Positions 409-29,531 of a DNA stretch of 64,000 nucleotides are shown in pieces; positions within the stretch are counted from its first letter, which is position 1, and the number at the start of each line of letters is the position of its first letter. The notes under the pieces were generated by a model. That model searched no databases, had not been told where the DNA came from, and worked only from the letters and a program-made list of their open reading frames with translations. The position numbers and the translations under genes were made by a program. Source of the DNA: Cannabis sativa. Lineage: Eukaryota > Streptophyta > Magnoliopsida > Rosales > Cannabaceae. The stretch lies in assembly GCF_029168945.1 (NCBI RefSeq), contig NC_083605.1:35105280-35169279 (forward strand), read 5' to 3'.

Positions 409-661
409 TGTTATAAAATAATATAAAGTAATATAAAGTAGAAGAGAGGAAAGAAGAAGAAGATGAAGAGAGAAAGAGAAAGTGAATGAGAATTTCTGAG
501 GTGTTTATTCTAATGGGGTGAACCCCTATTTATACAAATACAAGAGTGAGATATTAAGAAACTAAGAAAAAGGGAAACTAAGGAAAAGATGAATGTTGAT
601 TACAATTCATGGTAATAAATAAAAGATTTGGACATCCACATAATTATTAATATTTATAACA
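409..661 (-). repeat. Family-1 3' LTR, copy A
   Basis: Begins TGTTATAAAATAA and ends ATTTATAACA on the + strand. It is nearly identical to 14464-14716. In element orientation it follows the purine-rich tract, so it is the 3' LTR. It contains purine-rich GAAGAAGAAGATGAAGAGAG-like sequence and, read on the minus strand, a TATAAATAG promoter-like motif. Confidence 0.93.
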
Positions 662-672
662 CTCCCCCTTGG
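662..672 (-). other. Polypurine tract of family-1 copy A
   Basis: The minus strand reads CCAAGGGGGAG immediately before the TG of the 3' LTR, the usual plus-strand primer layout of Ty1-copia elements. Confidence 0.8.
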
Positions 673-689
673 ATGTCCATAATATAACT

Positions 690-1050
690 GCCTTATTAAA
701 AATCTTGCTGAAAAATTTGGTCAAAGGAAAAAGAGTATAGTGTAAACTAACTCCCTCCCCCTCATTTAGGCATTTGTGGAGATCTTCTAATCGACGAATT
801 TCGATCTTGTCTGTCGTCTTCTCAAATGTTGATGTTGGTAATAGCTTTGTGAATAAGTTTGTAAGATTGACACTTGATTGAATATGTTGAACACCAATAT
901 GCATTTTCTTGAAGCGTATAAGAAGAATTTCGTGAAATGTGTTCTAACTCTATCTCCTTCAATGTACCTCCTTTTAGTTGAACGATGCAAGCAGTATTAT
1001 CCATAGAGAATTGCTTGGGTTGATACTTCTTTATTGAGTGCAATCCATAT
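690..1050 (-). pseudogene. Ty1-copia RNase H C-terminal remnant
   Basis: Minus-strand frames contain the hallmarks of the end of a Ty1-copia polyprotein: DNTACIVQLKGG around 940-1000, then NLTNLFTKLLPTSTFEK around 790-850, followed by a purine-rich tract and LTR. The two parts lie in different frames, so at least one frameshift separates them. No reverse transcriptase or integrase is present upstream. This is the only polyprotein sequence left in the element. It identifies the superfamily and orientation but cannot be functional. Confidence 0.8.
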
Positions 1051-1129
1051 GTTTCCCGAATATGCTATGCCAATGATCTCACTCACACACATTCTCTACT
1101 TGCTTCATAAAATGCAAGTATGTTAACAT

Positions 1130-1320
1130 GATTTATAGTTGCCTCGTTAAAAACCTTGCCAGAAAAACCCAGTGGGACAAAATCTGAGCTAGGGAAAAGA
1201 GTACAATATGTATTTCATATTCATAATTATTTGCAAGTTGCCTCGTTAAAAACCTTGCCAGGAAAACCCATTAGGACAAAACCTGAACTAAGGGAAAAAG
1301 AGTGCAACATGAATATGTCT
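1130..1320 (-). repeat. Repeated copia 3'-end motif
   Basis: Two tandem copies (about 1138-1200 and 1236-1310) of a block containing CCTCGTTAAAAACCTTGCCA, a CCCA(G/T)TGGGAC-like core and GGAAAAAGAGT. A weaker third copy lies at about 690-735. Similar blocks are familiar to me from the 3' ends of Ty1-copia elements. Function unknown. The + strand reading frame of 104 codons across it is a by-product. Confidence 0.6.
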
Positions 1321-1429
1321 CCCCCTCATGCACATATGATCCATAATTCTTTTGGTGATAATATATCTCATAAGATTATTGTTATCACTTTTAAAATATC
1401 ACCATATATAATCTTTGATCATATATTTT

Positions 1430-3231
1430 CTATAACTCTTCCAGAGTATGTATGGACTTCTAAATTATAGATGAGGGGTTCGTGGAACATTAGTCTTTAT
1501 CCAACTAATTGTATCATTCATGTGTGTACACAACTTTGTTCATACGAAAATTTAAAATTTCAAGTAGATATGAACATAACACATTAATGGTACTATAAAT
1601 TTTCATTTGTGACAATGATGGTACTCCAAGACCATATATTTATTCCATCTTGTTTTATGATCTTAATTTCCAAATCAAATGATCATATATTTATAATTCT
1701 TGATACATATGAAGTACTTCAGGACTTCAATACTAATGAACAAACTTTATACATTAATATTTCTCGAAATACAAAAGAAATAAAAGTTTGTTCTTCAATT
1801 AATCAAAAACTCTTCAAGAGTCTATCACAACGTATAATTTACGTATTTATATTGCATAGACAACCATAGGTATTTTTCAAATAATAATTTACTTACATGT
1901 CTTTATTTTATACAAAGATCTTTGTCATATAGTGCGCGCGACTTTGAATTTATATCACTTAAGACATGTATTAAATTCTTCTAGAATTTTTAGATAAGGC
2001 TTTTTTCAAATTCTCACTATATTAGGAGCTCCAAATAAATAACCTTTTGTTGCAACATTTATGTGACGCTTATAAATCCTCATAAAATATATTCCAGGCT
2101 ATAATCAAATCATGATTATATTTTCTCAATATTTAAGCCTTACTTCAATCAATCTCATGTCTATGCAAACTTTGTACAACAATTCATTATGTACAAATAC
2201 ATATATGCAAATTTCTCATTAGAAATATTTATTTGCACACCCTACAGGTCTTACTTCACTTTATGTGAGTAAATTTGCCTGGATTGCGTCATAATATTTT
2301 GGCCAAAAATCAAAATGTATGTCGATGATTCTCGACAAATCTAATACCATGATCCTTGCTATCTCATGTTAATTTATTGCATATGCAAACATTCAATATT
2401 TATTGTCGACAAAAATTTCAATAAATGATAATTTCCTCCCATATTGACATAACTTATAGAGATCTCTTTAAATTACATATTTTTCAAATATGTTTATCAT
2501 TTATAGGTACCTATATAGAATCACTTCAGGGATTCAATTTTGATCAAATGTGTTATGTCTAACTTCTCTTGGGAGTCTTTTCGAGTACCGTTTTCATCAC
2601 GGTTATCATTTTAATACTTTATAACATTAAGGTATCTCCATGAGTACCTCTAGATTTAACAACTTCAGGGCAAATCAAATGAACATTTATTAATAATTTC
2701 TACATTGTTCATTTACGCTTCAGGCGTTTTCAACTCATTCTATCTCAACTTTGAATAATATTGATTTGCAGTTGGTATATATCATTTTGAACTATATTGT
2801 TCTTATATACTTTGTGCAAGGATCATTTTTCAAAAATTATCATCGATCCCAACTGCTTCTCTCCCCCTGATCGAGAGAATTTTTAAAAATTGTGATATCT
2901 AATAATATTAATATACCTGTAGGGAATTCAGTATATCACAATGAATCAATATTTGTTTAAACTCATATATACTATATGACATTGAACTTCAGGTTCAATA
3001 AACTTCAGTTTCAAGTTCAATCCTTATGAACTTAATTCATTTCTAAGAATGAGTCATACGTGTATAATTAGAAATACATAAATTTACACATTTTGTAAAT
3101 GCATGATTATATAATCTTATCACATCGATAAGAAACTATGCAATAAAAATCTAACAATGGCTCAAGATTGTTAAGAAAATATAATTTAAATATTTTCTAT
3201 GTGGAAATATATGCACATTCTTCTTTTGAGC
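1430..3231. repeat. Inverted-repeat (hairpin) array, 3' half, copy A
   Basis: Non-coding. Short perfect inverted repeats follow one another almost without gaps. Examples: GAAGT/ACTTC (1711-1728); an 11-bp stem GAACAAACTTT (1738-1748) with 1783-1793, enclosing a hairpin at 1758-1771; ACATGTCT (1895-1902) with 1962-1969, enclosing a 14-nt palindrome at 1912-1925; TTTGTACA (2171-2178) with 2190-2197; TGCAAA (2206-2211) with 2232-2237, enclosing ATTTCT/AGAAAT; and ATTGAACTTCAGGTTCAAT (2981-2999). Several loops contain TTCAG. The array continues at 12125 after the gypsy insertion. Confidence 0.8.
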
Positions 3232-3236
3232 CTTAT

Positions 3237-3674
3237 TGTAACGTCCCCGCTTCAAGCCTCCATTGGGCCCTTACACCCACGGACTAAATGGCTCTTATAC
3301 ACGAGTACGTCACTCTGGCTGCTTCATGGACTGATGACTGACCCTACAGACCAACACGAGTGTTTTCAGCGTGCTTTGTCCTCACTCACACGCATCCTGG
3401 GAAAACTTCCCAGGAGGTCACCCATCCTTGAAATTACTCCAAGCCAAGCACGCTTAACTGTGGAGTTCTTTCGAGATGGGCTACCGAAAAACAAGATGCA
3501 CCTTGTTGATATAGGTAGTACCAATCAATCCATTTAAGCTCTCTTCAACTGTGTAGTCCCATACCTACACAGTCTCAGAATCATCCCACTTGACCTTCCC
3601 CAGGCGATGTGGGATTGCACAGCTTACCCGGTATTTCCCCTTACGGATCACGGGACTACTGACTGTCACAATCA
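3237..3674 (-). repeat. Cassandra LTR (3' LTR in element orientation)
   Basis: 438 bp, TG...CA, matching 3744-4181 at all but about one position. It abuts the CTTAT duplication that belongs to the surrounding gypsy element. Confidence 0.85.
3396..3504 (-). other. 5S rRNA-derived sequence in Cassandra LTR
   Basis: The minus strand matches plant 5S rRNA over its middle and 3' part: AGTTAAGCGTGCTTGG (box A region) at 3442-3457, GGATGGGTGACC (intermediate element/box C region) at 3416-3427, then CTCCTGGGAAG. The 5' third is diverged. This can act as an internal RNA polymerase III promoter in Cassandra LTRs; activity here is not shown. It is not a 5S gene. Confidence 0.82.
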
Positions 3675-3743
3675 CCCCCCCTTACGGGGTCCGACGTCCT
3701 CGTCGACCACACTTCCGGCTGGGTCAAGGCTCTGATACCATTT

Positions 3744-4181
3744 TGTAACGTCCCCGCTTCAAGCCTCCATTGGGCCCTTACACCCACGGACTAAATGGCT
3801 CTTATACACGAGTACGTCACTCTGGCTGCTTCATGGACTGATGACTGACCCTACAGACCAACACGAGTGTTTTCAGCGTGCTTTGTCCTCACTCACACGC
3901 ATCTTGGGAAAACTTCCCAGGAGGTCACCCATCCTTGAAATTACTCCAAGCCAAGCACGCTTAACTGTGGAGTTCTTTCGAGATGGGCTACCGAAAAACA
4001 AGATGCACCTTGTTGATATAGGTAGTACCAATCAATCCATTTAAGCTCTCTTCAACTGTGTAGTCCCATACCTACACAGTCTCAGAATCATCCCACTTGA
4101 CCTTCCCCAGGCGATGTGGGATTGCACAGCTTACCCGGTATTTCCCCTTACGGATCACGGGACTACTGACTGTCACAATCA
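3744..4181 (-). repeat. Cassandra LTR (5' LTR in element orientation)
   Basis: 438 bp, second copy of the Cassandra LTR, with the same 5S-like segment at 3903-4011. The complement of the Met-tRNA primer site lies three bases before it on the + strand. Confidence 0.85.
3903..4011 (-). other. 5S rRNA-derived sequence, second Cassandra LTR
   Basis: Same 5S-like segment as at 3396-3504, displaced by 507 bp, with one substitution in the flanking LTR sequence (CTTGGG for CCTGGG). Confidence 0.82.
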
Positions 4182-5079
4182 TGCTAACGTCTCAGGTAAA
4201 GTGGGGGACCATGGTGGGGTATGATACGGGATAAGGCCGTTGAATGTAGAGATACCCTACCCTACATTTTACTGAGTCGTGTATGAGATTGTTATGGTGG
4301 GTATGATACAGTGATGTTACTGTTGAATATAGAGATACCCTATCCTATAACAATGGTAGGGCTGCATAGGCCCAGGTTATTATATGGGCAGATTAGGCCC
4401 AGGATATTGTAAGGCCAGGCTAGGCCGGGTTATGTAAGTAATGGCTATGATATGTCAATGTTATGGTAATTACATTATTATTTATAGTATTGATATGATT
4501 ATGTTATGAATATGATACTGGAGTTATGATCTCTGTATATATGTATGGTGTGAACAATTAGTATGGACCTATATGATAAAGGTTTTCATGTGTACAGTTA
4601 TTTGGCTATAGTTATAAAATAAGGTGTATGATATTGCTAAAACTTAATAAATAAATTAATGATATGTGTGATATTATATGGTATTGTATGATAAGCATTT
4701 CCTTACTGGGCTTTTAGCTCACCCCCTTACTTTCCCCCTACAGGCAATAGACAGGGAACATTGAATGTAAGTTTGATGAGTTGGGTCAGTTCTGGTATGT
4801 ATACTGCGAGGGGCTATGGACGAGCAAACGGTCTAGAACGCCGGTGGAGCCTTGGTTTTGTTTTTTTTTTTATAGTAAAGTAATCTCAGCTCAGTGGGGT
4901 GTTACAAATTTATTTTTTTGCACTCAACTACTTATTTTGTTTTTAATATGAATGATCATTCACCTTTTTGCATATTTATTGTAAAACCCACTGTGTATTT
5001 CCAAACAGCTTTGAATCTTTTTAATTAATGCATCAAAATTAGTATTTTGTAAAATAAGGAAAAATATTGGGGCGTTACA
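4182..5079 (+). repeat. Truncated 5' LTR of gypsy-like element
   Basis: These 898 bp align end to end with 11222-12119, with two visible substitutions near 4405-4415. The first 1944 bp of the LTR (present as 9278-11221) are missing. It ends in GGGGCGTTACA directly before the PBS. Confidence 0.9.
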
Positions 5080-5081
5080 GT

Positions 5082-5094
5082 TGGTATCAGAGCC
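5082..5094 (+). other. Primer-binding site, gypsy-like element
   Basis: TGGTATCAGAGCC, complementary to the 3' end of initiator tRNA-Met, two bases after the 5' LTR. Confidence 0.88.
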
Positions 5095-7917
5095 GATCGT
5101 TCCTTAGCCCGAAGGATACTCACAGTATACATACAGAAGACTGAAAAGATCCCTCTCACTATAACGTAAGTGTTAGTTTTAATATGCTTAGTATTGCTAT
5201 TAATAGTTTTATATGTGATACATAGATTTTTGTTAAAATATGTTTCCTAGAATTAGAGCCTCATCTGTAGTGGGTGCTTAGAGAAATTAAGAGTATATTA
5301 CCTCTTATGATTGATTACACATTTTACGAAGAAGATGAATAGGTTTTATATTTCTTTATTGCCTTGTATTGAAACTAGGAAGGACAGTGTTCCTTTCTTG
5401 AAAATTTAGAATAAATTATATTAGGAATTCATAAGACTTTGTTTGATAAATAGAATATTACTAGTTAAGCTTGACAACATTAAGTTTAGATATGTTCATG
5501 GAATCTTCTCTCCCTATAATTGAACTCTTTTGTTTCTATTAAATCAATATTTCTTGTAAGAGCTCACACATGCAACTAGAAGATCAGTTAGAATCAATTT
5601 GAAAGGAACGACCAGTAGAGGTGGGGGCTAAGGATGTGTGTTCCGCTGACCCACAAATGGTTGATGTTCCAGATCGAACCCAATAGTAGTTAAGGCTAAC
5701 GATCTAATAGAGGCATTGGAAGGAATGTGAGCATGACTAAGACGATTTGTTGAAGAGTTTTCACAGGCTCAGCGCAATAGATCACCAACACTAGTAGTGG
5801 AACTTGAAGCACATAATGAAATGTACCAATAGCCAACTAAGTATCGATGCATAGAATTGCACCTGTCTACGAATGGTTAAAGATGAAGTCTCTACACCTA
5901 GTTATGAAAGGAAGCCCAACCTATAGGGAGTAGGGAATGATTTAAGATAGTGAATGCTATACTAGACTAGATAGGGTATTTTATGAAACTCACTTATTAA
6001 GAAAGATGAAAGAATAGACCTATAAGGAGCAAGTACTGTCTTGATGGATATTCTATGGATACACACCCCTAAGTTAGATGGTAAGAAGTATGAATATTGT
6101 ATATGAAGACTTTAGAGAAAAGTCTATTATACAAATTAGTCCAAAGAGGACTATGCCATCACGTAGAAAGGAGTGTAGCGTACTGAACAGAATCTAGAAT
6201 AAGAAGTTAGAAAGAAACCTGATATAATTTTTTTAAGTAATGACTTATGAAGGTATCTTGAACACCAAGAGATAAGTAGAGCATCAACAAATATTAGATT
6301 ACCGAAGGAAAATTGTAAGCTTCAAACTCAAGGTCAGCTACTTTGTGAGGAGACAATAAAGTAAAATGCGCATAGTTTCGATAAAGACAATTTCAAAGGA
6401 GGAAGAAAAAGAAGATTTAGACGCGGCTAACAATTCGGGTACAACATGAATGAGAGGCAACACAGAGGACAACTATACAGAACAATTCAAACTGGACAAC
6501 TTGGAGATCATAAATATAGCTTCGTAAAGGATAAAAAAAAATAAACAACTATAGAAAGTAGATCATAAATTTAAGACTTGAGGAAGAGGGGAAATTAATA
6601 TTCAAGGGTGACATCCCTAGATTCTAAATACCCATCGATACAACAACGGTGTAGATCATAACTCAAGGAGAAGAGGTTAGGAAAGCCTCACTCAAAGGCA
6701 AGAGACAAGTGAGACACAACTAGGACTAAACTGATACATCTAGAAGAATTTCATGGAACGACAAGGACCATACGAGTTTTTGGTGAAGTGTTGAGATTAT
6801 AAAATGATTAAGCAACATAAAAGGCACAGAGTATGCAAATGATACTACAATCCACTCATGATTTTCTTTGTGGACAATAGTATGAGTATGTTTAAGTGAA
6901 TAGAAGCAAATAAGAAAAAAAAAAAAAAACTTACAAAAGTGTTAATTTTGGTCAAGAGATGTGGCATTTCTATGCTATATAGTGTTAGAGGAAAGAATGA
7001 CATCAGATCTGCCAAAAGTTAAAGTTGTCAAGAGCTAAGAATTCAGACAAATATTTGAAACTTTCTCGGCCCAGAAGGCTAGTAATGGAGCAATATCCTA
7101 GAGGAACATACTAAGATGGAATAAGACAATAGCCATTGTTTGGAAAATAACTAAAGTTTATCTAATTGGAAGTGAGGAACTTATAAGGAAAGAGAAAAGG
7201 ATGTATATATTGATAACATGATTGCATTCAGATATGGAATGAAGATGCTTAAGTGAAGTATGGACTTATTTTTAAAGGTAGTTTAGGAAGTACGAGTCAA
7301 AGAGCCCTGGCTAAATAATTATAAAAAGTGAGTCTCTAGTAGCAAATTAGACACAAGTGGGGTGTAGGAGGTATAGTAACGATGAACAGAGTAAGGTCTG
7401 TTCGGCATGATTTGCCAATTATGTATATAGTATCCTTACCCCGACAACTTGGTTGATTGATATATTATGAGATTACATGATTAACCTATGGTTAAATAGT
7501 AAATGATAAATAAATAATTGGGCTACCTAACCTATGTTAGGGTTGAACTCGTTTTAAAGGGTTACTAATGCACTTACGATATTTTAGCATATGTAAGGTA
7601 TGATCTTACTTAACTAAAAGTAGATGGTCTGTACTCGAATGTAAGTTGGTTTTAGATTTTGGAGGTCTTAACAGTGCAATTAAGAAGTTGGGATTTATTT
7701 TGTGAACTATAGAGGTCTACAATATGTAAGACATAAATATGGTTAGAAAAATACATGGTATTATAAATATGAAAGTGATGTGATACCCAGAAGGTTAGTA
7801 TAATAGAAGAAACAATCATTGAACACAATTACACAAATCTATCAGCATTGCAGATTTAGACTTCATCAGTATAGCAATGTAACACCACCTGATGAAATAT
7901 GGAGGAAAGTAGGACAA

Positions 7918-8043
7918 ATGGCCGATACTACTGGAAGGATTCCTCTTTGGATAATAGGTACTGTAACTGGTGTTCTGGTGATCGGTTTACTTGGTATTTT
8001 CTTTTATGGTTCATATTCTGGATTAGGTTCATCTCTTAGTTAA
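7918..8043 (+). pseudogene. psbJ: Plastid psbJ fragment (NUPT)
   Basis: Forty codons from ATG (7918) to CTT (8037) encode a protein nearly identical to plastid PsbJ, the single-span low-molecular-weight photosystem II subunit. It opens [14 protein letters not shown] and ends [13 protein letters not shown], with a central hydrophobic helix. The normal stop is lost by a small change after codon 40, so the frame runs on to TAA at 8041-8043; upstream it is open back to 7819. The neighbours are not psbL or psbF as in the plastome, so this is a short nuclear copy carried inside a retrotransposon. It is not expected to be functional. Confidence 0.9.
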
Positions 8044-8089
8044 TATTTAGTTAATAAATGATAAAATGAAATTTAGATGCTTATGGGCG

Positions 8090-8317
8090 ATATCTAATGA
8101 AACTGTCGCTGGAATTGAGATCTCATTCAATGAGAAGGATACCAAATATCTGGAGTTTCTTTTTGTATATTATATGGATGATCTGATCCGCGAGGACCAT
8201 GATTGGGAATTGCTTGATCGTCTTTCTTCGAGGAAGGGACAAAACATAATCAACTTGAATTCGGCACATCTATTTGAAATCTTAGTGAAAGACTGAATTT
8301 GTTATCTCATGTTTGCC
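8090..8317 (+). pseudogene. ycf2: Plastid ycf2 fragment (NUPT)
   Basis: The encoded peptide matches an N-terminal part of plastid Ycf2. It begins [13 protein letters not shown], continues through [12 protein letters not shown] and [11 protein letters not shown], and reaches LFEILVKD. A stop codon (8294-8296) stands where Ycf2 has Trp; Ycf2-like sequence (ICYLMFA) continues in frame for about seven more codons. There are several substitutions. In plastomes ycf2 lies in or near the inverted repeat, far from psbJ, so the two pieces were joined after leaving the plastid. Only 46 bp separate them here. Confidence 0.88.
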
Positions 8318-9260
8318 TAGAAGATAAAAGTTAGTGTGGAAAACTAGATAATCTCATAATCAAGTCAACTTGGTTGAAAGGAGTAATGGAGGACCAAGCA
8401 CCATAGGAGAGATTAGCGAAGAAAATACAATAGAGTGATACAAGAAAGTGACTACAAAAGAAACCAACAGCAGTTACCTAGGAAAATGGGAAGGCGTGAC
8501 AAGTGCAATGAATACATGGATAAAGGATATCAAGAAGTGAATGTTAGACAAAAAAGTGGTCGAAATGGATCATTAAAATATTTATATATAGAAGGCTTTT
8601 TTTAAGAGCTTACATGTTTATTTCCAAGTGTCATGGAACAAGTGTCTATCGATGAGTGAGTAACATCTATGAAATTGAGAGAATGACACTGTAGCCTTAC
8701 AGAAGAAAATCAAGTAGAGAAGTAAGATTTTTATACGTAATAACATTTAACTAAAGAGTGGGAATGATTATAGAAGTTTGCATAAGGTCTTCTACCCTAC
8801 TCCTTGTGTTTATTATTTTGTATTGTATAATGTGTTCTCAAGTGACATGTAAGGATGTTCATTTAGAGAATAAATAGTTTTACTCTTAATGACATGTAAG
8901 GATGCTCATAGAAGAATAAATAGTTTCACTCTTAATGTCATGTAAGGATGGTCATAAGAGAAGAATTTTTTTTATAATATTACGAGCATGCTATTGCAAA
9001 ACTTATGTATTTAAAGCATGTATATGTAATTTATTATGATAGAGTACGCTTTGATATTTAAGTAATGTATAGAGAAATAATAATGCTTAATTAATAAGTT
9101 ATTTGTATTATATGTGTTATGGATTGATCGACAAGATATAGGTTAAATGCATATTTGTTGGCTCCATATAGTAGATAAGGAGGTAATGCGGTAAGTGGTG
9201 AAAGACATGAAGACTCAACACCCCGAGTGTTGGTAAGTTAAATTTCGAGGACGAAATTTC

Positions 9261-9277
9261 TTTTAAGGAGGGTAGAA
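9261..9277 (+). other. Polypurine tract, gypsy-like element
   Basis: TTTTAAGGAGGGTAGAA directly before the TG of the 3' LTR at 9278. Confidence 0.8.
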
Positions 9278-12119
9278 TGTAATATCCAGTTTAAAATAGT
9301 ATTTAATTTTTCGTTTGGTTATTTATTGTGCGAGGATAATTAATTCATTTATTTGTGTTGTTAGTGAGTTGATATTATTGCTTAGAGTAGTTGTACCATT
9401 TTTTAAAGAAAGTTAAAGTTGTATTAACTACGAAAGTAAAATATTATGATATTTTCATAAGTAGGTAATCGTTTAATTAAAGCCCGATATGAAAGTCCAT
9501 TAGGTTTTTATAATATATTTATTAGATTTAATTAATTGTATAAGTGGTATTAAATAATATTATTATTTGATTAATGTTAGAAAAATCGTAAGTTTAGAGA
9601 AATTCGCAGGTTTAGAAACTGTTTTACAAAAATGACCATATCTGGAGTTTTATAACTCCGATTGAGGTGATTTCAGTGGCGTTGGAAAGATAATTCAAAG
9701 ATCTATAAATTTTGTAGAAATAACCATATCATAATTCGTAATTTTTTTAGGTGAAAACTAAGCCCTAAAGTTACGAGATTTAGAGGTTACAATTTAAATT
9801 TAAAAGTAAGATATTTGTTTATTTAATAATTTATTATATTGTTATTGCTATTATGTTAATATTATTATTATTCATAAAACTAAACCTAATAAGAGTCAAA
9901 ATAGTATAGGTTTCATTAACCCTAAAATTATATCGTTCTATTCTTCCCACCTATCTGAGCAAGACTAACCCTAAAATTTTCAAATCATCTTTCCATTACA
10001 TCCTTAACCAAATCTATACCACTCTTCACTCTCATCTTTGATCACCATCATCTTATGTCTATCGATCCAAGCAGCTCGATGTATTTGAGGTAAGAAACTC
10101 TACATTTACTTATTTATTGATCACAATAGGAGAATATTCGTAGGTCTCCTTTTCTTATTTTTCAGAATGAAACATGTTTCAGTAAAACTGTCATATCTCT
10201 TTAAATACTCATCCGATTCTCACAATCTTGGTGCCTATAGAAAGCTTATTCAATTTCCCATAATTCTTATGAAGAAAGGTTTTACTGAATCGAAATTTAT
10301 CTATGTCAAAAATTAGTATTTCTACGCTGTTTATTGTAAATCGTTTTTTTTATATTTTCTATATAAGTTGTCTCAGTAAAATTCAAATATCTCTCTGAAT
10401 AATGATCTGATTCTAGTTATCTTGGTACCGTTGAAAAGATAATTCAATTTTCTAAATATTTTATGAAGAAACCATTCACTAATTATTGAATATTCTAAGT
10501 CAAAATTATTGTTTTATTGCTGTAGTTCGAAATCCATTTGTTTCAGGATTTCTAGAAAACTGTTTCGGTATAATATCTATATCTCTTACGTTATAACTCC
10601 GATTTTAAAGATTTTAGTGTCATTAGAAAGGGAATTCGATTTTCTAAAACTTTTATGAAGAGAGTATTCTCTAATTTGGAATATTTCAGTATCAAAACTT
10701 TGGATTTCCGATGTCTATTGTGATTCGTTACTCCATATTCCTTCTCAGAAATAGTTTCAGTAAAACTATCATAACTCCCTCAGTTTTAATCCATTTTTAG
10801 TGATCTTTATATCATTGGAAAGATAATTGAATTTCCTATAATTTTTATGAAGGAAACTTCCACTGAATTCGTGTAGTTATTGGTCAAAAATAGTATTCTT
10901 TCTGCTGTACTGTAAGAGTGCGAATTTTAATGTTAGAGCCTTGACCCATGTGTTATTATAGGTAGTAGTGACGAGATAACAAGTTTAAGCAGCAGGATTT
11001 GAGGTAAGGAAATTAGATAGTTTTGTATGTGTTTATCTGCATAAACTTAAATTCTTTATGTATTGAAATATGATTTATGATTTGTTATTATGAATATGTA
11101 TATGGTACTAAGAATGTGTGGTATGGACACAATATGAGTTTGTGAATTGATACATAGATTATGGTTGTATGACTAGTATATATTGTATGTTGTATTTGTA
11201 TGTTGCATGTTGTATGTTGTATGCTAACGTCTCAGGTAAAGTGGGGGACCATGGTGGGGTATGATACGGGATAAGGCCGTTGAATGTAGAGATACCCTAC
11301 CCTACATTTTACTGAGTCGTGTATGAGATTGTTATGGTGGGTATGATACAGTGATGTTACTGTTGAATATAGAGATACCCTATCCTATAACAATGGTAGG
11401 GCTGCATAGGCCCAGGTTATTATATGGGCAGATTAGGCCCAGGATACTGTAGGGCCAGGCTAGGCCGGGTTATGTAAGTAATGGCTATGATATGTCAATG
11501 TTATGGTAATTACATTATTATTTATAGTATTGATATGATTATGTTATGAATATGATACTGGAGTTATGATCTCTGTATATATGTATGGTGTGAACAATTA
11601 GTATGGACCTATATGATAAAGGTTTTCATGTGTACAGTTATTTGGCTATAGTTATAAAATAAGGTGTATGATATTGCTAAAACTTAATAAATAAATTAAT
11701 GATATGTGTGATATTATATGGTATTGTATGATAAGCATTTCCTTACTGGGCTTTTAGCTCACCCCCTTACTTTCCCCCTACAGGCAATAGACAGGGAACA
11801 TTGAATGTAAGTTTGATGAGTTGGGTCAGTTCTGGTATGTATACTGCGAGGGGCTATGGACGAGCAAACGGTCTAGAACGCCGGTGGAGCCTTGGTTTTG
11901 TTTTTTTTTTTATAGTAAAGTAATCTCAGCTCAGTGGGGTGTTACAAATTTATTTTTTTGCACTCAACTACTTATTTTGTTTTTAATATGAATGATCATT
12001 CACCTTTTTGCATATTTATTGTAAAACCCACTGTGTATTTCCAAACAGCTTTGAATCTTTTTAATTAATGCATCAAAATTAGTATTTTGTAAAATAAGGA
12101 AAAATATTGGGGCGTTACA
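9278..12119 (+). repeat. Complete 3' LTR of gypsy-like element
   Basis: 2842 bp, TGTAATATCC...GGGGCGTTACA, followed by the CTTAT duplication. The last 898 bp match the 5' LTR remnant at 4182-5079. Between about 9600 and 10930 it contains at least five degenerate copies of a roughly 190-bp unit, recognisable by 'TTTCAGTAAAACT...CATA(T/A)CTC' followed by 'GAAAG(A/C)TAATTCAATTT'. Confidence 0.9.
9600..10930 (+). repeat. Degenerate ~190-bp tandem repeats in LTR
   Basis: Units start near 9615, 10177, 10370, 10562 and 10755; the last four are spaced about 190-195 bp. Each carries a '(C)AGTAAAACT' phrase, a 'CATATCTC' phrase, then 'GGAAAGATAATTCAATTTTCTA...TTTTATGAAG'. Divergence between units is high. 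Confidence 0.65.
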
Positions 12120-12124
12120 CTTAT

Positions 12125-14390
12125 AAATAACAATGAGAAGAATCTTCTGGTTCTTCAACAAAATTTAGTCAAATTCTTTGACAATTTATTGCATATGATT
12201 GATCATGTCAAAATAATTCAATTCATGAACTTCAGGTTCACTATAATTTGTATTTCAATGAAACTTTCAAAATGTAATGTAAATTCATTACAACATAATC
12301 ATTACAAGTTTCATTTTTATATACACGAATAATATAATTATATTATTCTCCAAAACATATACACTCTTCAGGAATCACTATCATCAATTCAATGATGTGT
12401 ATAATTTAAAAGATACATGACAACTTCATCATGTTATTGTAATGGTCAAATATATATAACCATAACATATCATTTATTTTTCCTGATATCTTTTTAACAA
12501 GTCGTCTAATTTATTAATAGACTATTCATTAGTCTAATTATCATGACTTGATATATTATATATTTAAATGTACAACAAGTACATATAATAAGTTATTTAT
12601 TATCACTTTCATAACTAGATAAAAGTTACACATCTAGGTACATACAAAGACATTTTACTACTCAAAGTAGCAATTGTATGTAAGGCTTCTTCAGGAAGCT
12701 TTTCAACTAATCATTTTGTGATTCTTTATCACTTTGATTATATTGGATCACTAACAAATATTAGTAAATTATATATCCACTTTTGGGAATATGCAAACTG
12801 AATTATATGGTAACTATATATTTACATATCATGTACCAACAATAGTTTGAAACTATTGATTTCAAGAAATAATAAAATATGTATATATTAATTTGCTTCT
12901 GGCATTACCAATATATGTGAAATCTATATTCTTTGAAATAGAATTTCATGTCTATTCATTCTCTTTAGGGAATGATATTTAAATATTCTAAATGTACAAT
13001 AAATTTGTACAATTCACATTCTATTCAATAATCAAGTATACTTTTATCTTGATTATAAGTATGTCCGTACTACAGGTACGCGACCACTATTATTCAATTC
13101 CACACATGATATATAAATTTCATGCACTTTGATTGTGTTTGGTATCTCATCTTTTGGTTGTTTCCACTTTTTTCTGGAAATATTTGAGTAGTAAATAATG
13201 TCATTGATTATTTAAAATCATTACATTCACTTCGGGGAATGACGTTGAACAAGTAGAACATTATTATAAATTTCTTAAAAATTTATTACTTGTTCATCCA
13301 TAAAAATATAAGAAATTATTCAACAATTTCTTTTACGATCTTTCAAAGAATATATGAATGCAATTTTTGCATAGTCTCCAAGATGTATGCAAAATTTAAT
13401 CTTTAATATATGTCAGATTCAATAATTTCCAACATTGCAAGTAATAACAATGTATAATAACATGACTAATACGAAGAATCTTTAAAAGTAATTGACTTCA
13501 ATTCGTATCATTCTCTGCAGGGAATGATGAACAATAAATACATGCCTCATGTATTTAAATAACATTAGTCATGCTCATTGTTATTCTTATACTTTGATGT
13601 TTCAATGCAATTTTCTTAACATTCTTTTTGGATATTCAAAACCCACTATAAAATTGCATCAATAATAATCATTTTTAATGATTCTTTAGTTGTATTCACA
13701 TAAATACAATCATTTTTTTTTTTGACAAATATAAAACATTTACTTCAGGAAATGTTTATCAAAATCTATATCGATATTAGATTACTTTTCATTGTCCTCA
13801 AAGAATACAAGAACATATAGATAAATATGTATTCATCTCTTTCATTATATATCCATCAACTATATAATGAATATTACGTTTGCATAATCTTCAGGATATA
13901 TGCAAGATTTTATTGAGGACGCATAATCATCAGGATATATGCAATATTTTATCGAGGATGCATAATCTTCAGGATATATGCAATATTTTATCGATGATGC
14001 ATAATCTTCAGGATATATGCAATATTTTATCGATGATGCATAATCTTCAGGATATATGCAATATTTTATCGATGATGCATAATCTTTAGGATATATGCAA
14101 TATTTTATCGATAATACATAATCTTTTGGATATATGTATAATTTATATAGATTTTCTCTATCATATCATAGGCGCACATATATTGTAAATATTATGAATG
14201 ATAAGAACATAATATATATATATGAAATTAATAATAAATATATAAAAACATATACATACATATATAATATATAGATATATAGATAAAAAGAAAAAAGAAA
14301 ACAAAGGATTCTTGAAATTGTTTCAGTCAGATAAGTATATATATAAATATATATTTAGTGTATCATGACTTTGAAACAATTCAAGAACTT
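12125..14390. repeat. Inverted-repeat (hairpin) array, 5' half, copy A
   Basis: Non-coding continuation of 1430-3231. Examples: TGACA (12179-12183) with 12206-12210, enclosing ATGAT/ATCAT; a 22-nt perfect palindrome at 12327-12348; GCTTC/GAAGC around loop TTCAG (12685-12699); a 9-bp stem with 1-nt loop (12840-12858); CGTAC/GTACG around TACAG (13066-13080); a multi-branch set at 13443-13585; and an 8-bp stem around ACTTCAGG (13734-13757). It ends in a long hairpin near the primer site: 14309-14325 pairs with 14372-14387 with one bulged base. Confidence 0.8.
13882..14140. repeat. 39-bp minisatellite, seven units
   Basis: Units start at 13882, 13921, 13960, 13999, 14038, 14077 and 14116, each near GCATAATCTTCAGGATATAT. 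Every unit contains a hairpin TGCATA...TATGCA around the CTTCAGG loop. Since 39 is divisible by three it makes an open + strand frame of 13-residue repeats; this is antisense to the element and almost certainly not a gene. Confidence 0.9.
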
Positions 14391-14445
14391 TAACAAAATA
14401 ATTACATTGGGACATAGCATAGACTCATGTTTGAAGCTTGGGCAG

Positions 14446-14463
14446 AGACTCGTGCTAATAACG
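14446..14463 (-). other. Primer-binding region, family-1 copy A
   Basis: After the 5' LTR the minus strand reads CGTTATTAGCACGAGTCT. Copy B (CGTTATCAGCACGAG) and the fragment at 62212 (CGTTATCAGCACAAA) are alike. It differs from the usual TGGTATCAGAGC. I cannot assign the tRNA. Confidence 0.55.
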
Positions 14464-14716
14464 TGTTATAAAATAATATAAAATAATATAAAGTAGAAGA
14501 GAGGAAAGAAGAAGAAGATGAAGAGAGAAAGAGAAAGTGAATGAGAATTTCTGAGGTGTTTATTCCAATGGGGTGAACCCCTATTTATACAAATACAAGA
14601 GTGAGATATTAAGAAACTAAGAAAAAGGGAAACTAAGAAAAAGATGAATGTTGATTACAATTCATGGTAATAAATAAAAGATTTGGACATCCACATAATT
14701 ATTAATATTTATAACA
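14464..14716 (-). repeat. Family-1 5' LTR, copy A
   Basis: 253 bp, about three substitutions from 409-661. It is followed by the ATTCT target-site duplication. Confidence 0.93.
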
Positions 14717-14721
14717 ATTCT

Positions 14722-19288: not shown

Positions 19289-19842
19289 TGATGGATTATA
19301 TTTTATCAAGACCTAGATTTACTAACAAGTATGTTTATAAGATCCAAAATATGAATTTCTAAAACAATAAAACTTAAACACATATAAAGTATGAGAAACC
19401 TTACATTGGTTGCAGCGGAATTAAATGACTTCTTCCGCTCAAATCTCTAACCCTTGTTCCTTTCTGTCGCAGAGTATAATCAAGATTTGAGCCCGACACT
19501 CCTCGAGTTGTTTGGATTCTTCACAGTCTTATACACTTTGATTGAGGACTAACTTGCTATGGGTAGGCATGCACTCAATCACTAAGGCTCGAATTTTTAT
19601 GTGAAGAACTATATAGAATTTCAAAAATAGGAAGAAGAAGAAGAAGAAGTCTCAAACTCTGTAGTTGTTTGACAAGATGTAAACTAGGTTTAGAGTAATT
19701 AGTTGGATTATGAGACTATTTTTTTTTAATACGAATTTACTTAGGGTTAGGATTGAATTATATGGAATAAAAATGATAAAATAATAGCAAAATAGGGACT
19801 TAGTGGCCAACCATGATGCGGGCCCTACGCTAATTATATTTT

Positions 19843-20095
19843 TGTTATAAAATAATATAAAATAATATAAAATAGATGAGAAGAAAGAAGAAGAAGATGA
19901 AGAGAGAAAGAGAAAGTGAATGAGAATTTCTGAGTTGTTTATTCCAATGGGGTGAACCCCTATTTATACAAATACAAGAGTAAGATATTAAGAAACTAAG
20001 AAAAAGGGAAACTAAGAAAAAGAGGAATATTGATTACAATTAATGGTAATAAATAAAAGATTTGGACATCCACATAATTATTAATATTTATAACA
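19843..20095 (-). repeat. Family-1 3' LTR, copy B
   Basis: 253 bp TG...CA, with three AATAATATAA-type units at its left end. Confidence 0.92.
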
Positions 20096-20109
20096 CTCCC
20101 CCTTGGATG

Positions 20110-20480
20110 TCCATAATAACTGCCTTAGTAAAAATCTTGCTGAAAACTTGATCAAAGGAAAAAGAGTATAGTGTAAACTAACTCCCCCTCATTTAGGCAT
20201 TTGTGGAGATCTTCTAATCGAGGAATTTCGATCTTATCTGCTGTCTTCTCAAATATTGATGTTGGTAATAACTTTGTGAATAAGTTTACAAGATTGACAC
20301 TTAATTAAATATGTTGAACACCAATATGTATTTTCTTGAAGCGTATAAAGAAGAATTTCGTGAAATGTGTTCTAACTCTATCTCCTTCAATGTACCATCC
20401 TTTTAGTTGAGCGATGCAAGCAGTATTATCCATAGAGAATTGCTTGGGTTGATACTTCTTTATTGAGTGCAATTCATATG
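20110..20480 (-). pseudogene. Ty1-copia RNase H remnant, copy B
   Basis: Same content and order as 690-1050 in copy A, with additional substitutions. No intact frame. Confidence 0.7.
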
Positions 20481-20849
20481 TTTCCCAAATATGCTATGTC
20501 AATGATCTCACTCACACACATTCTCTACTTGCTTCATAAAATGTAAGTATGTTAACATGATTTATAGTTGCCTCGTTGAAAACCTTGCCAGAAAAATCCA
20601 GTGCGACAAAATCTAAGCTAAGGGAAAAAAGAGTACAATATATATTTCATATTCATAACTATTTGCAAGTTGCCTCGCTAAAAACCTTGCCAGGAAAACC
20701 CAGTGGGACAAAACCTGAGCTAAGGGAAAAAGAGTGCAACATGAATATGTCTCCCCCTCATGCACATATGATCCATAATTCTTTTGGTGATAATAAATCT
20801 CATAAGATTATTGTTATCACTTTTAAAATATCACAATATACAATCTTTG

Positions 20850-23800
20850 ATCATATATTTTCTATAACTCTTCCAGAGTATGTATGGACTTCTAAATTAT
20901 AGATGAGGGGTTCGTGGAACATTAATCTTTATCCAACTAATTGTATCATTCATGTGTATATACAATCTTGTTTATACTAAAATTTAACATTTCAAGTAGA
21001 TATGAACATAACACATTAATGATAATATAAATTTTCGTTTGTGACAAGGATGGTACACCAAGACCATATATTTGTTCCATCTTGTTGTATGATCTTAATT
21101 TTCATATCAAATGATCATATATCTATAATTCTTAACACATATGAAGTACTTCAGGACTTCAATACTAATGAACAAACTTTATACATTTAATATTTCTCGA
21201 TATACAAAAGAAATAAAAGTTTGTTTTGCAATTAATCAAAAACTCTTCAAGAATCTATCACAACGTATAATTTACGTATTTATACTGCATAGACAACCAT
21301 ACGTATTTTTCAAACAATAATTTACTTACATGTCTTTATTTCATACAAAGATCTTTGTCATATAGTGCGCGCGACTTAGAATTTATATCACTTAAGACAT
21401 GTATTAAATTCTTTTAGAATTTTTAGATAAGGCTTATTTCAAATTCTCACTATATTAGGAGCTCCAAATAAATAATCTTTTGTTGCAACTTTTATGTGAC
21501 GCTTATAAATCCTCATAAAATATATTCCAGGCTATAATCAAATCATGATTATATTTTCTCAATATTTAAGCCTTACTTCAATCAATCTCATGTCTATGCA
21601 AACTTTGTACAACAATTCATTATGTACAAATACATATATGCAAATTTCTCATTAGAAATATTTATTTGCACACCCTACAGGTCTTACTTCACTTTATGTG
21701 AGTAAATTTGCCTGGACTGCGTCATAATATTTTGGCCAAAAATCAAAATGTATGTCGATAATTCTTGACAAATCTAATACAATGATCCTTGCTATCTCAT
21801 GTTAGTTTATTGCATATGCACACATTCAATATTTATTGTCGACAAAAATTTCAATAAATGATAATTTCCTCCCATATTGACATAACTTATAGAGATCTCT
21901 TTAAATTACATATTTTCAAATATGTTAATCATTTATAGGTACCTATAACGAATCACTTCAGGGATTCAATTATGATTAAATGTGTTATGTCTAACTTCTC
22001 TTGGGAGTCTCTTCGAGTACCGTTTTCATCACGGTTATCATTTTAATACTTTATAACATTAAGGTATCTCCATGAGTACCTCTAGATTTAACAACTTCAG
22101 GGCAAATCAAATGAACATTTACTAATAATTTCTATATTGTTCATTTACGCTTCAGGCGTTTTCAACTCATTCTATCTCAACTTTGAGTAATATTAATTTG
22201 CAGTTGGTATATATCATTTTGAACTATATCGTTCTTATATACTTTGTGCAAGGATCATTTTTCAAAAATTATCATTGATCCCAACTGCTTCTCTCCCCCT
22301 GATCGAGAGAATTTTAAGAATTGTGATATCTAATAATATTAATATACCTGTAGGGATTTCAGTATATCACAATGAATCAATATTTGTTTAAACTCATATA
22401 TACTATATGACATTGAACTTCAGGTTCAATAAACTTCAGTTTCAAGTTCAATCCTTATGAACTTAATTCATTTCTAAGAATGAGTCATACGTGTATAATT
22501 AGAAATACATAAATTTACACATTTTGTAAATGCATGATTATATAATCTTATCACATCGATAAGAAACTATGCAATAAAAATCTAACAATGGCTCAAGATT
22601 GTTAAGAAAATATAATTTAAATATTTCTATGTGCAAATATATGCACATTCTTCTTTTGAGCCTTATAAATAACAATGAGAAGAATCTTCTGGTTCTTCAA
22701 CAAAATTTAGTCAAATTCTTTGACAATTTATTGTATATGATTGATCATGTCAAAATAATTCAATTCATGAACTTCAGGTTCACTATAATTTGTATTTCAA
22801 TGAAACTTTCAAAATGTAATGTAAATTCATTACAACATAATCATTACAAGTTTCATTTTTATATACACGAATAATATAATTATATTATTCTCCAAAACAT
22901 ATATACTCTTCAGGAGTCACTATTATGTTTATCAAATTTTATATTTCTTCAGGAATCACTATCATCAATTTAATGATGTGTATTATATAAAATGCACATA
23001 ACAACTTCATCATGTTGTTATAATGGTCAAATAGATATAACCATAATATATCATTCATTTTTCCTGGTATCTTTTTAACAAGTCGTCTAATTTATTTAGA
23101 CTATTCATCAGTCTAATTATCATGACTTGATATATTATATATTTAAATGTACAACCAGTACATATAATAAGTCATCTCTTATTACTTTCATAACTAGATA
23201 AAAGTTATACATCTAGGTACATACAAAGATATTTTGCTACTCAAAGTAGCAATTGTATGTAAGAGTACTTCTTCAGGAAGCTTTTCAAATAATCATTTTG
23301 TGATTCTTTATCACTTTGATTATATTGGATCACTAACAAATATTAGTAAATTATATATCCACTTTCGGGAATATGCAAACTGAATTATATAGTAACTATA
23401 TATATACATATCCTGTACTAACAATAGTTTGAAACTATTGATTTCAAGAAATAATAAAATATGCATATATTAATTTACTTCTGGCATTACCAATATATGT
23501 GAAATTTATATTCTTTGAAATAGAATTTCATGTCTATTCATTCTTTTCAGGGAATGATATTTAAATATTCTAAATGTACAATCAATTTGTACAATTCACA
23601 CTTATTCAATAATCAAATATACTTTTATCTTGATTATAAGTGTGTCCGTACTACAGGTACGCGACTACTATTATTCAATCCCACACATGATATATAGATT
23701 TTATGCCCTTTGATTGTGTGTGGTATTTCATCTTTTGGTTGTTTCCAATTTCTTCTGGAAATATTTGAGTAGCAAACAATACCATTGATTATTTAAAATC

Positions 23801-24930
23801 ATTACATTCACTTCGGGGAATGACGTTGAACAAGTAGAACATTATTATAAATTTCTTAAAAATTTATTACTTGTTCATATATAAAAAGAAATTACTCAAC
23901 AATTTCTTTAACAATATTTCAAAGAATATACGAATACAATTTTTGCATAATCTCCAAGATGTATGAAAAATTTGATCTTTAATATATGTCACATGCAATA
24001 ATTTCCAACATTGCAAGTAATAACAATGTATAGTAACATGACTAATACAAACAATCTTTAAAAGTAGTTGAATTCAATTCGTATCATTCTCTGCAGGGAA
24101 TGATGAACAATAAATACATGTCTCATGTATTTAAATAATATTAGTCATGCTCACTGCTATTCTTATACTTTGATGTTTCAATGTAATTTTCTTAATATTC
24201 TTTTTAGGTATTCAAAACCCACTATAAAATTGCATCAATAATAATCATTTTTAATGATTCTTTAGTTGTATTCACATAAATACAATCATTTTTTTTTTGA
24301 CAAATATAAAACATTTACTTCAGGAAATGTTTGTCAAAATGTATATCGATATTAGATTACTTTTCATTGTCCTCAAAGAATACAAGAACATATATATATA
24401 AATATGTATTCATCTCTTTCATTATATATCCATCAACTATATAATGAATATTATGTTTGCATAATCTTCAGGATATATGCAAGATTTTATTGAGGACGCA
24501 TAATCATCAGGATATATGCAATATTTTATCGAGGATGCATAATCTTCAGGATATATGCAATATTTTATCGATGATGCATAATCTTCAGGATATATGCAAT
24601 ATTTTATCGATGATACATAATCTTTAGGATATATGCAATATTTTATCGATGATACATAATCTTCTGGATATATGTATAATTTATATAGATTTTCTCTATC
24701 ATATCATAGGCACACATATATTGTAAATATTATGAATGATAAGAACATTATATATATATGAAATCAATAATAAATATATAAAAATATATACATACATATA
24801 TAATATATAGATATATAGATAAAAAGAAAAAAAAAACCATATGATTCTTGAAATTGTTTCAGTCAGAGGAGTATATATATAAATATATATTTAGTGTATT
24901 TTGACTTTGAAACAATTCAAGAACTTTAAC
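20850..24930. repeat. Inverted-repeat (hairpin) array, copy B
   Basis: Colinear with 1430-3231 plus 12125-14390 of copy A, without the gypsy insertion. Most stems are unchanged and many differences fall in loops, for example CATTC TTTTCAGG GAATG near 23540 against CATTC TCTTTAGG GAATG in copy A. Extra hairpins occur, such as the additional 'TCTTCAGGAATCACTAT' block near 22950. There is no coding frame of note. Confidence 0.8.
24459..24690. repeat. 39-bp minisatellite, six units
   Basis: Units start at 24459, 24498, 24537, 24576, 24615 and 24654; one fewer than copy A. Confidence 0.88.
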
Positions 24931-25000
24931 AAGATACTTACATTGGGACTTGGGCAGAGACTCATGCTTGAAGCTTAGGCAGAGACTCGTGCTGATAACG

Positions 25001-25243
25001 TGTTATAAAATAATATAAAATAGATGAGAAGAAAGAAGAAGAAGATGAAGAGAGAAAGAGAAAGTGAATGAGAATTTCTGAGTTGTTTATTCCAATGGGG
25101 TGAACCCCTATTTATACAAATACAAGAGTGAGATATTAAGAAACTAAGAAAAAGGGAAACTAAGAAAAAGAGGAATATTGATTACAATTAATGGTAATAA
25201 ATAAAAGATTTGGACATCCACATAATTATTAATATTTATAACA
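25001..25243 (-). repeat. Family-1 5' LTR, copy B
   Basis: 243 bp, TG...CA, followed by the ATTTT duplication. It lacks one 10-bp unit present in its partner. Confidence 0.92.
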
Positions 25244-28752: not shown

Positions 28753-28800
28753 TCTATGATCTATAAATAGAGCCTAGAGAGCAACCATTCGAATTACCTC
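28753..28800 (+). promoter_or_regulatory. Probable LTR promoter (TATA box)
   Basis: TCTATAAATAGAGCC at 28758-28772, about 690 bp before the LTR end; the same sequence is in the 3' LTR near 36757. This is the usual form of a plant copia U3 promoter; the start point is not determined. Confidence 0.55.
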
Positions 28801-28952
28801 TTCCATTATTCATTTTCTACATTTATCTTTTGAGAGAAGAGAGTCTTTCTTTGTTTTGTGAGAGCCTAGTTGTTCATCTAGGTTCTAGTTGTTCTATTTC
28901 TGTTCTTACTCTATCCTAGAGGTTGTGAAGAACTACTTGACTGAACAAGAGA

Positions 28953-29475: not shown

Positions 29476-29487
29476 TGGTATCAGAGC
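29476..29487 (+). other. Primer-binding site, Sirevirus element
   Basis: TGGTATCAGAGC, complementary to initiator tRNA-Met, two bases after the 5' LTR. Confidence 0.92.
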
Positions 29488-29531
29488 GGGACACTAAACT
29501 CTTAGTGTGGTCCTATAACGTTTTTGTTAGA

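Follow-up and report, generated by a model that had tools for sequence, protein, structure and literature searches.

A non-coding copia derivative in Cannabis sativa with an interior of short perfect hairpins

Non-autonomous retrotransposons often outnumber their helpers. In a 64,000-nucleotide stretch of Cannabis sativa contig NC_083605.1 (the window), an earlier note described an LTR retrotransposon with functional-looking ends whose interior, at 1430-3231 plus 12125-14390, is built from closely spaced hairpins. What kind of element is this, and are its hairpins selected or merely accumulated? The coordinates proved correct, and a second, uninterrupted copy can be added; the two are referred to as elements A and B (Table 1).

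Two copies in the window and their family

Both copies carry the ends ascribed to them, namely LTRs, a primer binding site, a polypurine tract and target duplications (ATTCT at 404-408 and 14717-14721 for A, ATTTT at 19838-19842 and 25244-25248 for B). The LTR pairs are 98.8% (A, 3 mismatches in 253) and 99.6% identical (B, over 240 bp), compared with 95.4 and 96.6% between the interiors of A and B, from which we infer that most variation predates insertion. The interior of A comprises 662-3235 and 12123-14463 and is rich in hairpins from about 1430. It is split by an insertion outside the hairpin-array family, which we take to be of gypsy type from its primer site, TGGTATCAGAGC, and which also holds a 5S-like segment.

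Table 1 Features of the hairpin-array family in the window
Feature	Position	Strand	Basis or remark
Element A, whole span	409-14716	-	sequence read directly; split by nested insertion
5' LTR of A	14464-14716	-	
Primer binding site of A, CGTTATTAGCACGA	14450-14463	-	anticodon arm of tRNA-Ile(AAU), exact match
Hairpin array of A, 5' half	12123-14390	-	inverted-repeat counts, folding, motif counts
Insertion nested in A	3236-12122	+	two 902-bp repeats (4181-5082, 11221-12122) with 99.7% identity
Hairpin array of A, 3' half	1430-3235	-	inverted-repeat counts, folding, motif counts
75-79 bp module of A, two copies (...CCCACTGGGTTTTTCTGGCAAGGTTTTTAACGAGGCAAC)	1137-1314	-	
Copia RNase H of A, decayed C-terminal end	760-1064	-	
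Polypurine tract of A, AAGGGGGAG	662-670	-	sequence
3' LTR of A	409-661	-	
Element B, uninterrupted	19843-25243	-	
5' LTR of B	25001-25243	-	
Primer binding site of B, CGTTATCAGCACGA	24987-25000	-	C opposite A34 of tRNA-Ile
Long leader inverted repeat of B, TTCTTGAATTGTTTCA / TGAAACAATTTCAAGAA	24845-24923	-	directly after primer site
39-bp hairpin unit of B, tandem array	24457-24690	-	
Hairpin array of B with CCNGNAG motifs	21000-24840	-	
Two 3' modules of B	20570-20760	-	
RNase H end of B, decayed	20180-20493	-	
Polypurine tract of B	20096-20104	-	sequence
3' LTR of B	19843-20095	-	
Third relative: LTR end, primer site and leader	62064-62315	+	about 73% identity; sequence differs thereafter

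At least 566 exact LTR-primer junctions, and at least 827 with up to one mismatch, are present in the 771-Mb genome. All 20 fetched loci align with the family as far as each locus extends, and 11 have both LTRs, spanning 5.3-5.6 kb. Among these 11, ten loci have no forward frame longer than 96-128 codons, and one has a longest frame of 155 codons that lies outside the element; the two ORFs expected for gag and pol are absent from the 11 complete copies, and no gag-pol partner was seen among the 20 loci. The earlier statement that there are no protein genes is nearly right, the exception being about 0.3 kb of decayed copia RNase H near the 3' end. This remnant (P0002) gave 76 matches including itself, a few of them named Copia protein, TNT 1-94 Pol or Ty1/copia RT; a Pfam search of it returned no copia model. 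The family is a non-autonomous Ty1/copia derivative that has lost gag-pol except for this RNase H end. It is young and abundant, with short perfect hairpins following one another through 4 kb of its interior.

The primer site of B is complementary to half of tRNA-Ile(AAU), whose gene was taken from the same genome, with a C opposite A34/I34 where A carries a T. According to PMC6317226, the Bianca lineage of Ty1/copia is marked by a half-tRNA-Ile site in which C faces the first anticodon base, itself edited to inosine; the inosine reading, being already published, was dropped as a new observation. The primer site points to Bianca, a known copia group, of which the family would be a derivative rather than a full member. 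This placement uses the primer site and the RNase H remnant, the element being without RT and INT. Bianca itself is described there with two ORFs (PMC6317226), whereas the family has lost both and carries the hairpin array. Other LTR ends with the same primer site were found at 6 and 6 places, the first six being family variants; these searches yielded no diverged family with a hairpin array. One pattern scan of genome contigs returned a Pseudoalteromonas match, taken as chance, and a coding copia element (L052) on a contig in a cyanobacterial MAG. The latter shares the TAACA + CGTTATCAGCACGA junction and has the polypurine tract GAGGGGGAG, but encodes gag-pol in a 1306-codon frame that begins shortly after the primer site, with merely a few dozen bases from the pol end to the LTR. 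No match was obtained with the family patterns against viral contigs.

Because it is a non-autonomous Ty1/copia derivative with many LTR-primer junctions, the family is LARD-like: LTRs, primer site and polypurine tract surround kilobases of non-coding interior in many copies. The founding LARDs of barley are gypsy-related and have long LTRs; the present family differs from LARDs in its LTRs of about 250 bp, its copia source and an interior made up of short hairpins, in which one loop recurs. According to PMC7215508, LARDs likewise have functional ends around non-coding interiors in many uniform copies, and show conserved RNA structure; the copies studied here keep their hairpins, without an excess of compensatory changes. 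Sireviruses resemble the family in being copia elements whose non-coding DNA repeats a symmetric motif many times and whose polypurine tract is present in several copies close to the 3' LTR; their boxes, however, lie in the LTRs around a CGG-CCG core (PMC2829016), whereas the family's hairpins fill the interior and have the loop rather than the arms in common. The earlier view that no LTR family of this design is described thus needs qualification, since conserved RNA structure is known from non-coding LARDs and the primer site is of Bianca type. In literature searches on LARDs, hairpin interiors, the sequences, the primer and such genomes, covering few subscription journals, no account of the family itself was listed.

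Hairpin density and the recurrent loop

Perfect inverted repeats (loop 3-15) were counted against 30 dinucleotide shuffles. With arms of at least 5, A and B have 186 each (shuffles 107.5 and 115.3). With arms of at least 7 they have 38 each, compared with 10.0 (shuffle maximum 17) and 11.0 (maximum 18), so that the roughly 4-kb interiors hold 3-4 times the shuffled level; at 8 or more the counts are 16 against 3.2 in A and 13 against 3.1 in B. Non-overlapping hairpins with arms of at least 6 number 56 in 3921 nt of B, about one per 70 nt, against 27.1 in shuffles. The proposed density above chance was thereby confirmed. However, while the nested element at 5100-9300 shows no excess (3 against 4.6, arms of at least 7) and 28000-36000 a smaller one (26 against 9.4), two AT-rich controls equal the raw excess, with 45 against 14.6 at 47000-51000 and 48 against 16.8 at 60000-64000. 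Arms consisting of A/T only make up 14 of 15 control hairpins at 60-62 kb and 9 of 20 at 48-50 kb. We therefore rejected the inverted-repeat count alone as proof; it is the shared loop that is distinctive.

Folding z-scores in 120-nt windows (transcript strand, then plus strand) are -1.17 and -1.83 for A at 12120-14390, -1.01 and -1.20 for A at 1430-3235, and -1.10 and -1.76 for B at 21000-25000. The controls gave -1.56 and -1.34 at 47-51 kb and -0.69 and -1.08 at 62-64 kb, and the remaining stretches +0.20 to -0.91. The window has no Rfam match at gathering score.

On the transcript (minus) strand of B, CCNGNAG occurs 21 times against about 0.46 expected, and once in antisense; CCTGAA and CTGAAG occur 14 times each against 0.6. 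Stems of at least 4 bp enclose 18 of the 21 sites, and stems of at least 5 enclose 14, compared with 8.1% when the flanks were shuffled and 8.8% for positions drawn at random. A shared loop on differing stems thus exceeds shuffled controls, but it is a minority feature: CCNGNAG lies in the loop of only 9 of the 56 B hairpins, and most hairpins have unrelated loops. Motif loops vary more among copies than the rest (pi 0.057 against 0.036), with peaks at C2 and G4, both in CHG methylation context.

Variation of stems and loops among copies

One copy alignment was built from 16 of the 20 loci (without L035, L037, L040 and L043), the two halves of A, and B. Tests on 32 rows, and on 37 after adding five copies, masked cells in stretches with local identity below 72%, and 10 of 30 places extend only 1.5 kb into the interior; the stem-diversity and motif-loop pi tests omitted the last piece of the interior. 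Over 32 rows, shared variants per site are 0.042 in stems, 0.115 in loops and 0.067 elsewhere (Fisher test, stem/loop p=0.0037, stem/rest p=0.029), whereas variants confined to one copy hardly differ (0.130, 0.160 and 0.129). The observed loop/stem ratio was matched in 7 of 4000 column-shuffled draws. With 37 rows, stem/loop remains at p=0.003 and stem/rest is at p=0.19. The expectation that stems decay more slowly than loops is therefore borne out for shared variants, but is borderline or non-significant for stems against the rest. Compared with chance hairpins, stems are not exceptional: 110 of 200 column shuffles were as low in diversity (arms of at least 5) and 316 of 4000 as low in shared variants. 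The lower stem substitution between A and B, considered as a sign of protection, was rejected as it equals the ascertainment expectation. Better stem conservation in the copies with a variant primer site, suggested by the initial 1.7 kb of six copies (stems 36/1650, loops 56/902, rest 317/5084), weakened across the whole interior of five (L053 omitted; 143/3972, 136/2064 and 702/14276).

Covariation, which the earlier note had suggested checking, showed no excess. Five Watson-Crick double changes were seen in 10,957 pair-cells, each in one copy only, and stems had 14 double-changed cells against 7-36 in slid control pairs. The 56 B hairpins contain 0 GU and 0 AC mismatches (shuffles 1.2 and 1.4); of the outward mismatches, A has 4 GU among 58 and B has 8 among 54, which shuffled sequence equals. 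Selection of RNA on the transcript strand is hence unsupported by wobble pairs.

Possible origins of the hairpins

We tentatively hypothesize that the hairpins were selected as Gag-binding and compaction sites on a transcript copied in trans by the proteins of a complete relative, the trans mobilisation being suggested by the lack of genes together with young LTRs. Many weak, cooperating packaging sites would then be read as in satellite tobacco necrosis virus, whose stem-loops join a common loop motif to arbitrary stems and whose coat protein recognises the loop and is indifferent to the stem (PMC3593212). In that virus the loop preference is experimental. The hairpin excess, the orientation of the motif (21 of 22 in B) and the lower level of shared variants in stems than in loops speak for packaging. 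Against it speak the restriction of the motif to 9 of 56 hairpins, motif loops that are no better conserved than the rest, stem diversity at the level of chance hairpins, and the lack of wobble enrichment and of a compensatory excess. Release from coding could let an element fill its interior with packaging sites. That all genes were given up and the whole interior became a Gag-binding array with a loop code, outcompeting the helper for particles, is a far-reaching version that we consider quite unlikely.

The main rival to packaging is template switching, a mechanism described in PMC8794818: while DNA is being replicated or RNA reverse-transcribed, the growing strand turns back on itself as template, making and repairing perfect inverted repeats, so that functionless hairpins pile up in an interior free of coding constraint. 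We regard it as somewhat unlikely. It is favored by perfect Watson-Crick stems without G-U preference, by strands that fold about alike once G-U pairs are barred from the folding (z -1.44 and -1.29) and by the unrelated loops of most hairpins, but it leaves the one-orientation motif unexplained and does not fit the difference in shared variants between loop and stem; moreover, its signature, an arm rewritten to match its partner, was sought by eye (A against B; double changes in 18 rows) and not clearly seen. Neutral inheritance from a founder hairpin-rich by chance, with tandem duplication of hairpin units, is unlikely in our view. The 39-bp unit is indeed tandemly repeated in numbers that differ among copies, copies share 92-95% identity with B over their main aligned stretches, LTR pairs are near-identical and A-B stem substitution is as expected; conservation would be uninformative under this reading because the family would be too young for decay. 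However, plain duplication does not give a recurring loop on unrelated stems, and shared variants are unevenly spread. A structured RNA serving nuclear retention, translation-independent stability, or the evasion or exploitation of small-RNA silencing appears very unlikely. Dense folding of both strands would agree with it, and PMC4977306 lists among new microRNAs a small RNA of the ice plant that runs antisense to an LTR-primer junction like those of this family, so that such elements may be targeted; yet this small RNA maps to the junction and not the array, and Dicer would be expected to need arms longer than 6-11 bp.

If the far-reaching version were correct, the array would be a distributed packaging signal, the retrotransposon counterpart of those of satellite viruses. 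With about 800 junctions and a recurrent loop, the family is a concrete, testable candidate for sequence that acts in cis to win packaging or copying, and it offers a case for distinguishing hairpins made by template switching from selected ones. Similar runs of CTTCAGG/CTTCGG hairpins may also occur in other plant genomes.

Anatomy and coding capacity of the element family

Elements A and B are copies of the same LTR element and both young, since their LTR pairs of about 250 bp are 98.8% (A) and 99.6% (B) identical. On the transcript, the LTR is followed by the primer site, a leader that contains a long inverted repeat, a hairpin array of about 4 kb, two modules of 75-79 bp, a decayed RNase H end, the polypurine tract AAGGGGGAG and the closing LTR. 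Further polypurine-like tracts precede the one in use and are reminiscent of the multiple polypurine tracts of Sireviruses.

A search of the 770.7-Mb genome (18 contigs) yielded at least 288 plus at least 278 exact LTR-primer junctions, and at least 429 plus at least 398 with up to one mismatch. At the first 20 junction places, sampled at 8 kb each, LTR and leader of the family were always found at the start. Both LTRs, spanning 5.3-5.6 kb, were present in 11 of the 20; of the others, the second LTR of L047 is split, L032 carries an extra 1.5 kb and seven are interrupted, rearranged or truncated. The longest frame, measured for forward frames only, was 96-128 codons in ten of the two-LTR loci and 155 codons in L038, where it lies outside the element. 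Based on these short forward frames and the many junctions, the family is LARD-like and non-autonomous. The earlier note described the interior as free of protein genes, which holds for long gag-pol frames but not for the decayed copia RNase H end. P0002, an unbroken relative of this remnant, has 75 other matches, the majority nameless; some named ones are Copia protein (Nicotiana tabacum), Pol polyprotein from transposon TNT 1-94 (Cardamine amara) and Ty1/copia-type reverse transcriptase (Gossypium). Two matches in Solanaceae named 'secreted RxLR effector protein 161-like' are taken as misnamed copia fragments. Pfam returned no copia model for three pieces.

Features of elements A and B and of neighboring elements in the window
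Feature	Position	Strand	Remarks
Element A	409-14716	minus (transcribed)	Target duplications ATTCT; split by composite nested insertion 3236-12122
Element B	19843-25243	minus (transcribed)	Target duplications ATTTT
Broken copia RNase H end (A)	~760-1064	minus	Relative of P0002
Broken copia RNase H end (B)	~20180-20493	minus	Relative of P0002
Additional GAGGGGGAG tracts	20096-20770 and 662-1340		Three related copies, ...AAG.TTTTTA.CGAGGCA-like module
439-bp pair, within nested insertion	3236-4181	minus	Copies 99.8% identical, CTCTGATACCA between them, 5S-rRNA-like stretch; presumably a Cassandra-like TRIM; directly adjoins 902-bp repeats (99.7% identical) of a gypsy-type element
LTR element	28023-37467		LTRs 97.4% identical, long gag-pol frames; presumably a Sirevirus-like copia element
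608-codon frame	57442-59268		Reads like a pentatricopeptide-repeat protein

Hairpin density and the recurrent loop

As the earlier note anticipated, inverted repeats are denser than in dinucleotide-shuffled controls. A and B each have 38 perfect repeats with arms of at least 7 bp, where 30 shuffles gave 10.0 for A (maximum, 17) and 11.0 for B (maximum, 18); the element nested in A is at chance level (3 versus 4.6 expected). Density by itself is nevertheless unremarkable, because AT-rich DNA at 47-51 kb (45 versus 14.6) and 60-64 kb (48 versus 16.8) shows as great a raw excess. At 28-36 kb, 26 were found versus 9.4 expected. Arms holding G/C occur in 16/19 (12-14 kb) and 18/20 (22-24 kb) hairpins of array bins, and in 1/15 (60-62 kb) and 11/20 (48-50 kb) of non-array AT-rich bins. 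The 47000-51000 stretch also folds as well as the arrays, yet holds at most one site of the loop motif CCNGNAG.

The distinctive feature is the recurrent loop. CCTGAA and CTGAAG were each counted 14 times in the B transcript, versus 0.6 expected. The wider form CCNGNAG is found 21 times in B and 19 times in the two halves of A (shuffle expectation 0.46 and 0.44), and once per element on the opposite strand. Perfect stems of at least 4 bp surround 18 of the 21 B sites; at 14 sites they reach at least 5 bp and at 9 at least 6 bp (shuffled flanks: 23.0%, 8.1% and 2.7%). These stems are unlike one another (CGTAC/GTACG, ATTGAAC/GTTCAAT, ACGC/GCGT, AAACATTT/AAATGTTT). However, only 9 of the 56 B hairpins with arms of at least 6 bp carry the motif in the loop, and no common feature was seen in the remainder. 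The proposed shared loop on varied stems is thus real but confined to a minority of these hairpins, and the contrast with AT-rich DNA holds for the loop, not for raw hairpin count.

Variation among copies and origin of the hairpins

Variants were counted in 32 rows, namely 30 places (10 with only 1.5 kb of interior) and the two halves of A. We infer that single-copy variants are mostly neutral and post-insertion, and that shared variants mostly derive from active lineages. Single-copy variants per site amount to 0.130 (stem), 0.160 (loop) and 0.129 (rest), shared ones to 0.042, 0.115 and 0.067 (Fisher: stem/loop p=0.0037, stem/rest p=0.029). The corresponding values were p=0.027 and 0.025 with CG and CHG sites removed, and not significant for transversions alone (p=0.16 and 0.17). 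When hairpin choice was repeated within column-shuffled alignments (4000 draws), the loop/stem ratio was as large 7 times, stems were as low 316 times and loops as high once; loops being freer than expected is therefore a clearer signal than stems being held. In a previous count with 18 rows, p was 0.063 for stem/rest and 0.026 for stem/loop; adding five copies to the 32 rows (37 rows) gave 0.19 and 0.003. Stems thus carry fewer shared variants than loops, but their difference from the rest is not significant in the larger set.

Covariation, a check suggested in the earlier note, revealed no compensatory excess: stems hold 14 double-changed cells, slid control pairs 7-36. Five of nine double-change events (37 rows, 10,957 cells) are Watson-Crick, a share attainable by transitions alone, and each is confined to one copy. 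The CCNGNAG motif shows no conservation beyond that of the background (pi 0.057 versus 0.036), its CHG bases being worst.

The reading we put first is that the arrays may be distributed packaging or Gag-binding hairpins. There are two reasons: coat proteins that read loops use this kind of signal, one loop recurring on arbitrary stems, and a gene-free element depends on the particles of a helper. The satellite tobacco necrosis virus coat protein (PMC3593212) prefers the loop and is indifferent to the stem, and the A and B arrays likewise combine a recurrent loop with arbitrary stems. Beyond the observed anatomy, copy number, recurrent loop and uneven variation, packaging would entail that a helper element's proteins serve the family, that the hairpins are bound and that the array gives the element an advantage.

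A serious rival is template switching, in which hairpins arise or are repaired as DNA. Selection on RNA would be expected to show as wobble pairs in the transcript strand, but none were found inside the 56 B hairpins (0 GU and 0 AC mismatches; 1.2 and 1.4 expected), terminal GU did not exceed shuffles, and folding z is about equal on both strands with G-U disallowed. This missing wobble signature fits template switching, which, as argued in PMC8794818, is able to create and maintain perfect stems; alone, however, it yields no polar recurrent loop. Neutral inheritance of the array is likewise a serious rival. The origin may also be mixed, template switching having generated the hairpins and selection having preserved some of them.

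Primer site and related sequences

The primer site (CGTTATCAGCACGA in B, CGTTATTAGCACGA in A) is complementary to the anticodon arm of tRNA-Ile, the sole departure in B being C for T, opposite A34, a base that is edited to inosine. This arm is found at 14 places of the genome, and the one fetched is tRNA-Ile with anticodon AAT (ARAGORN). Neumann et al. 2019 (PMC6317226) report a half-tRNA-Ile site, explained by A-to-I conversion, and within plant copia elements they find it in no lineage but Bianca. A and B have this site in common with Bianca and are without RT and INT, so the link is drawn from the primer site, not from trees. Outside the C. sativa genome, a half-tRNA-Ile site accompanies a copia element with a 1306-codon gag-pol frame in CAKZGI010000010.1 (L052), a contig recorded under the cyanobacterial MAG uncultured Trichormus sp. 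The element there is probably a contaminant that stems from a plant host, at a guess a fern such as Azolla.

A table in PMC4977306 lists the ice-plant 'novel microRNA' mcr-miR6, TTCGTGCTGATAACGTGTTGAA. Its reverse complement consists of an LTR end and the half-tRNA-Ile primer site, so a retrotransposon may be the source of this small RNA.

For the 28023-37467 element, CTNCNGG sites number 6 and 7, and GC-holding hairpins 10 and 9, in the 2-kb bins with its LTRs.
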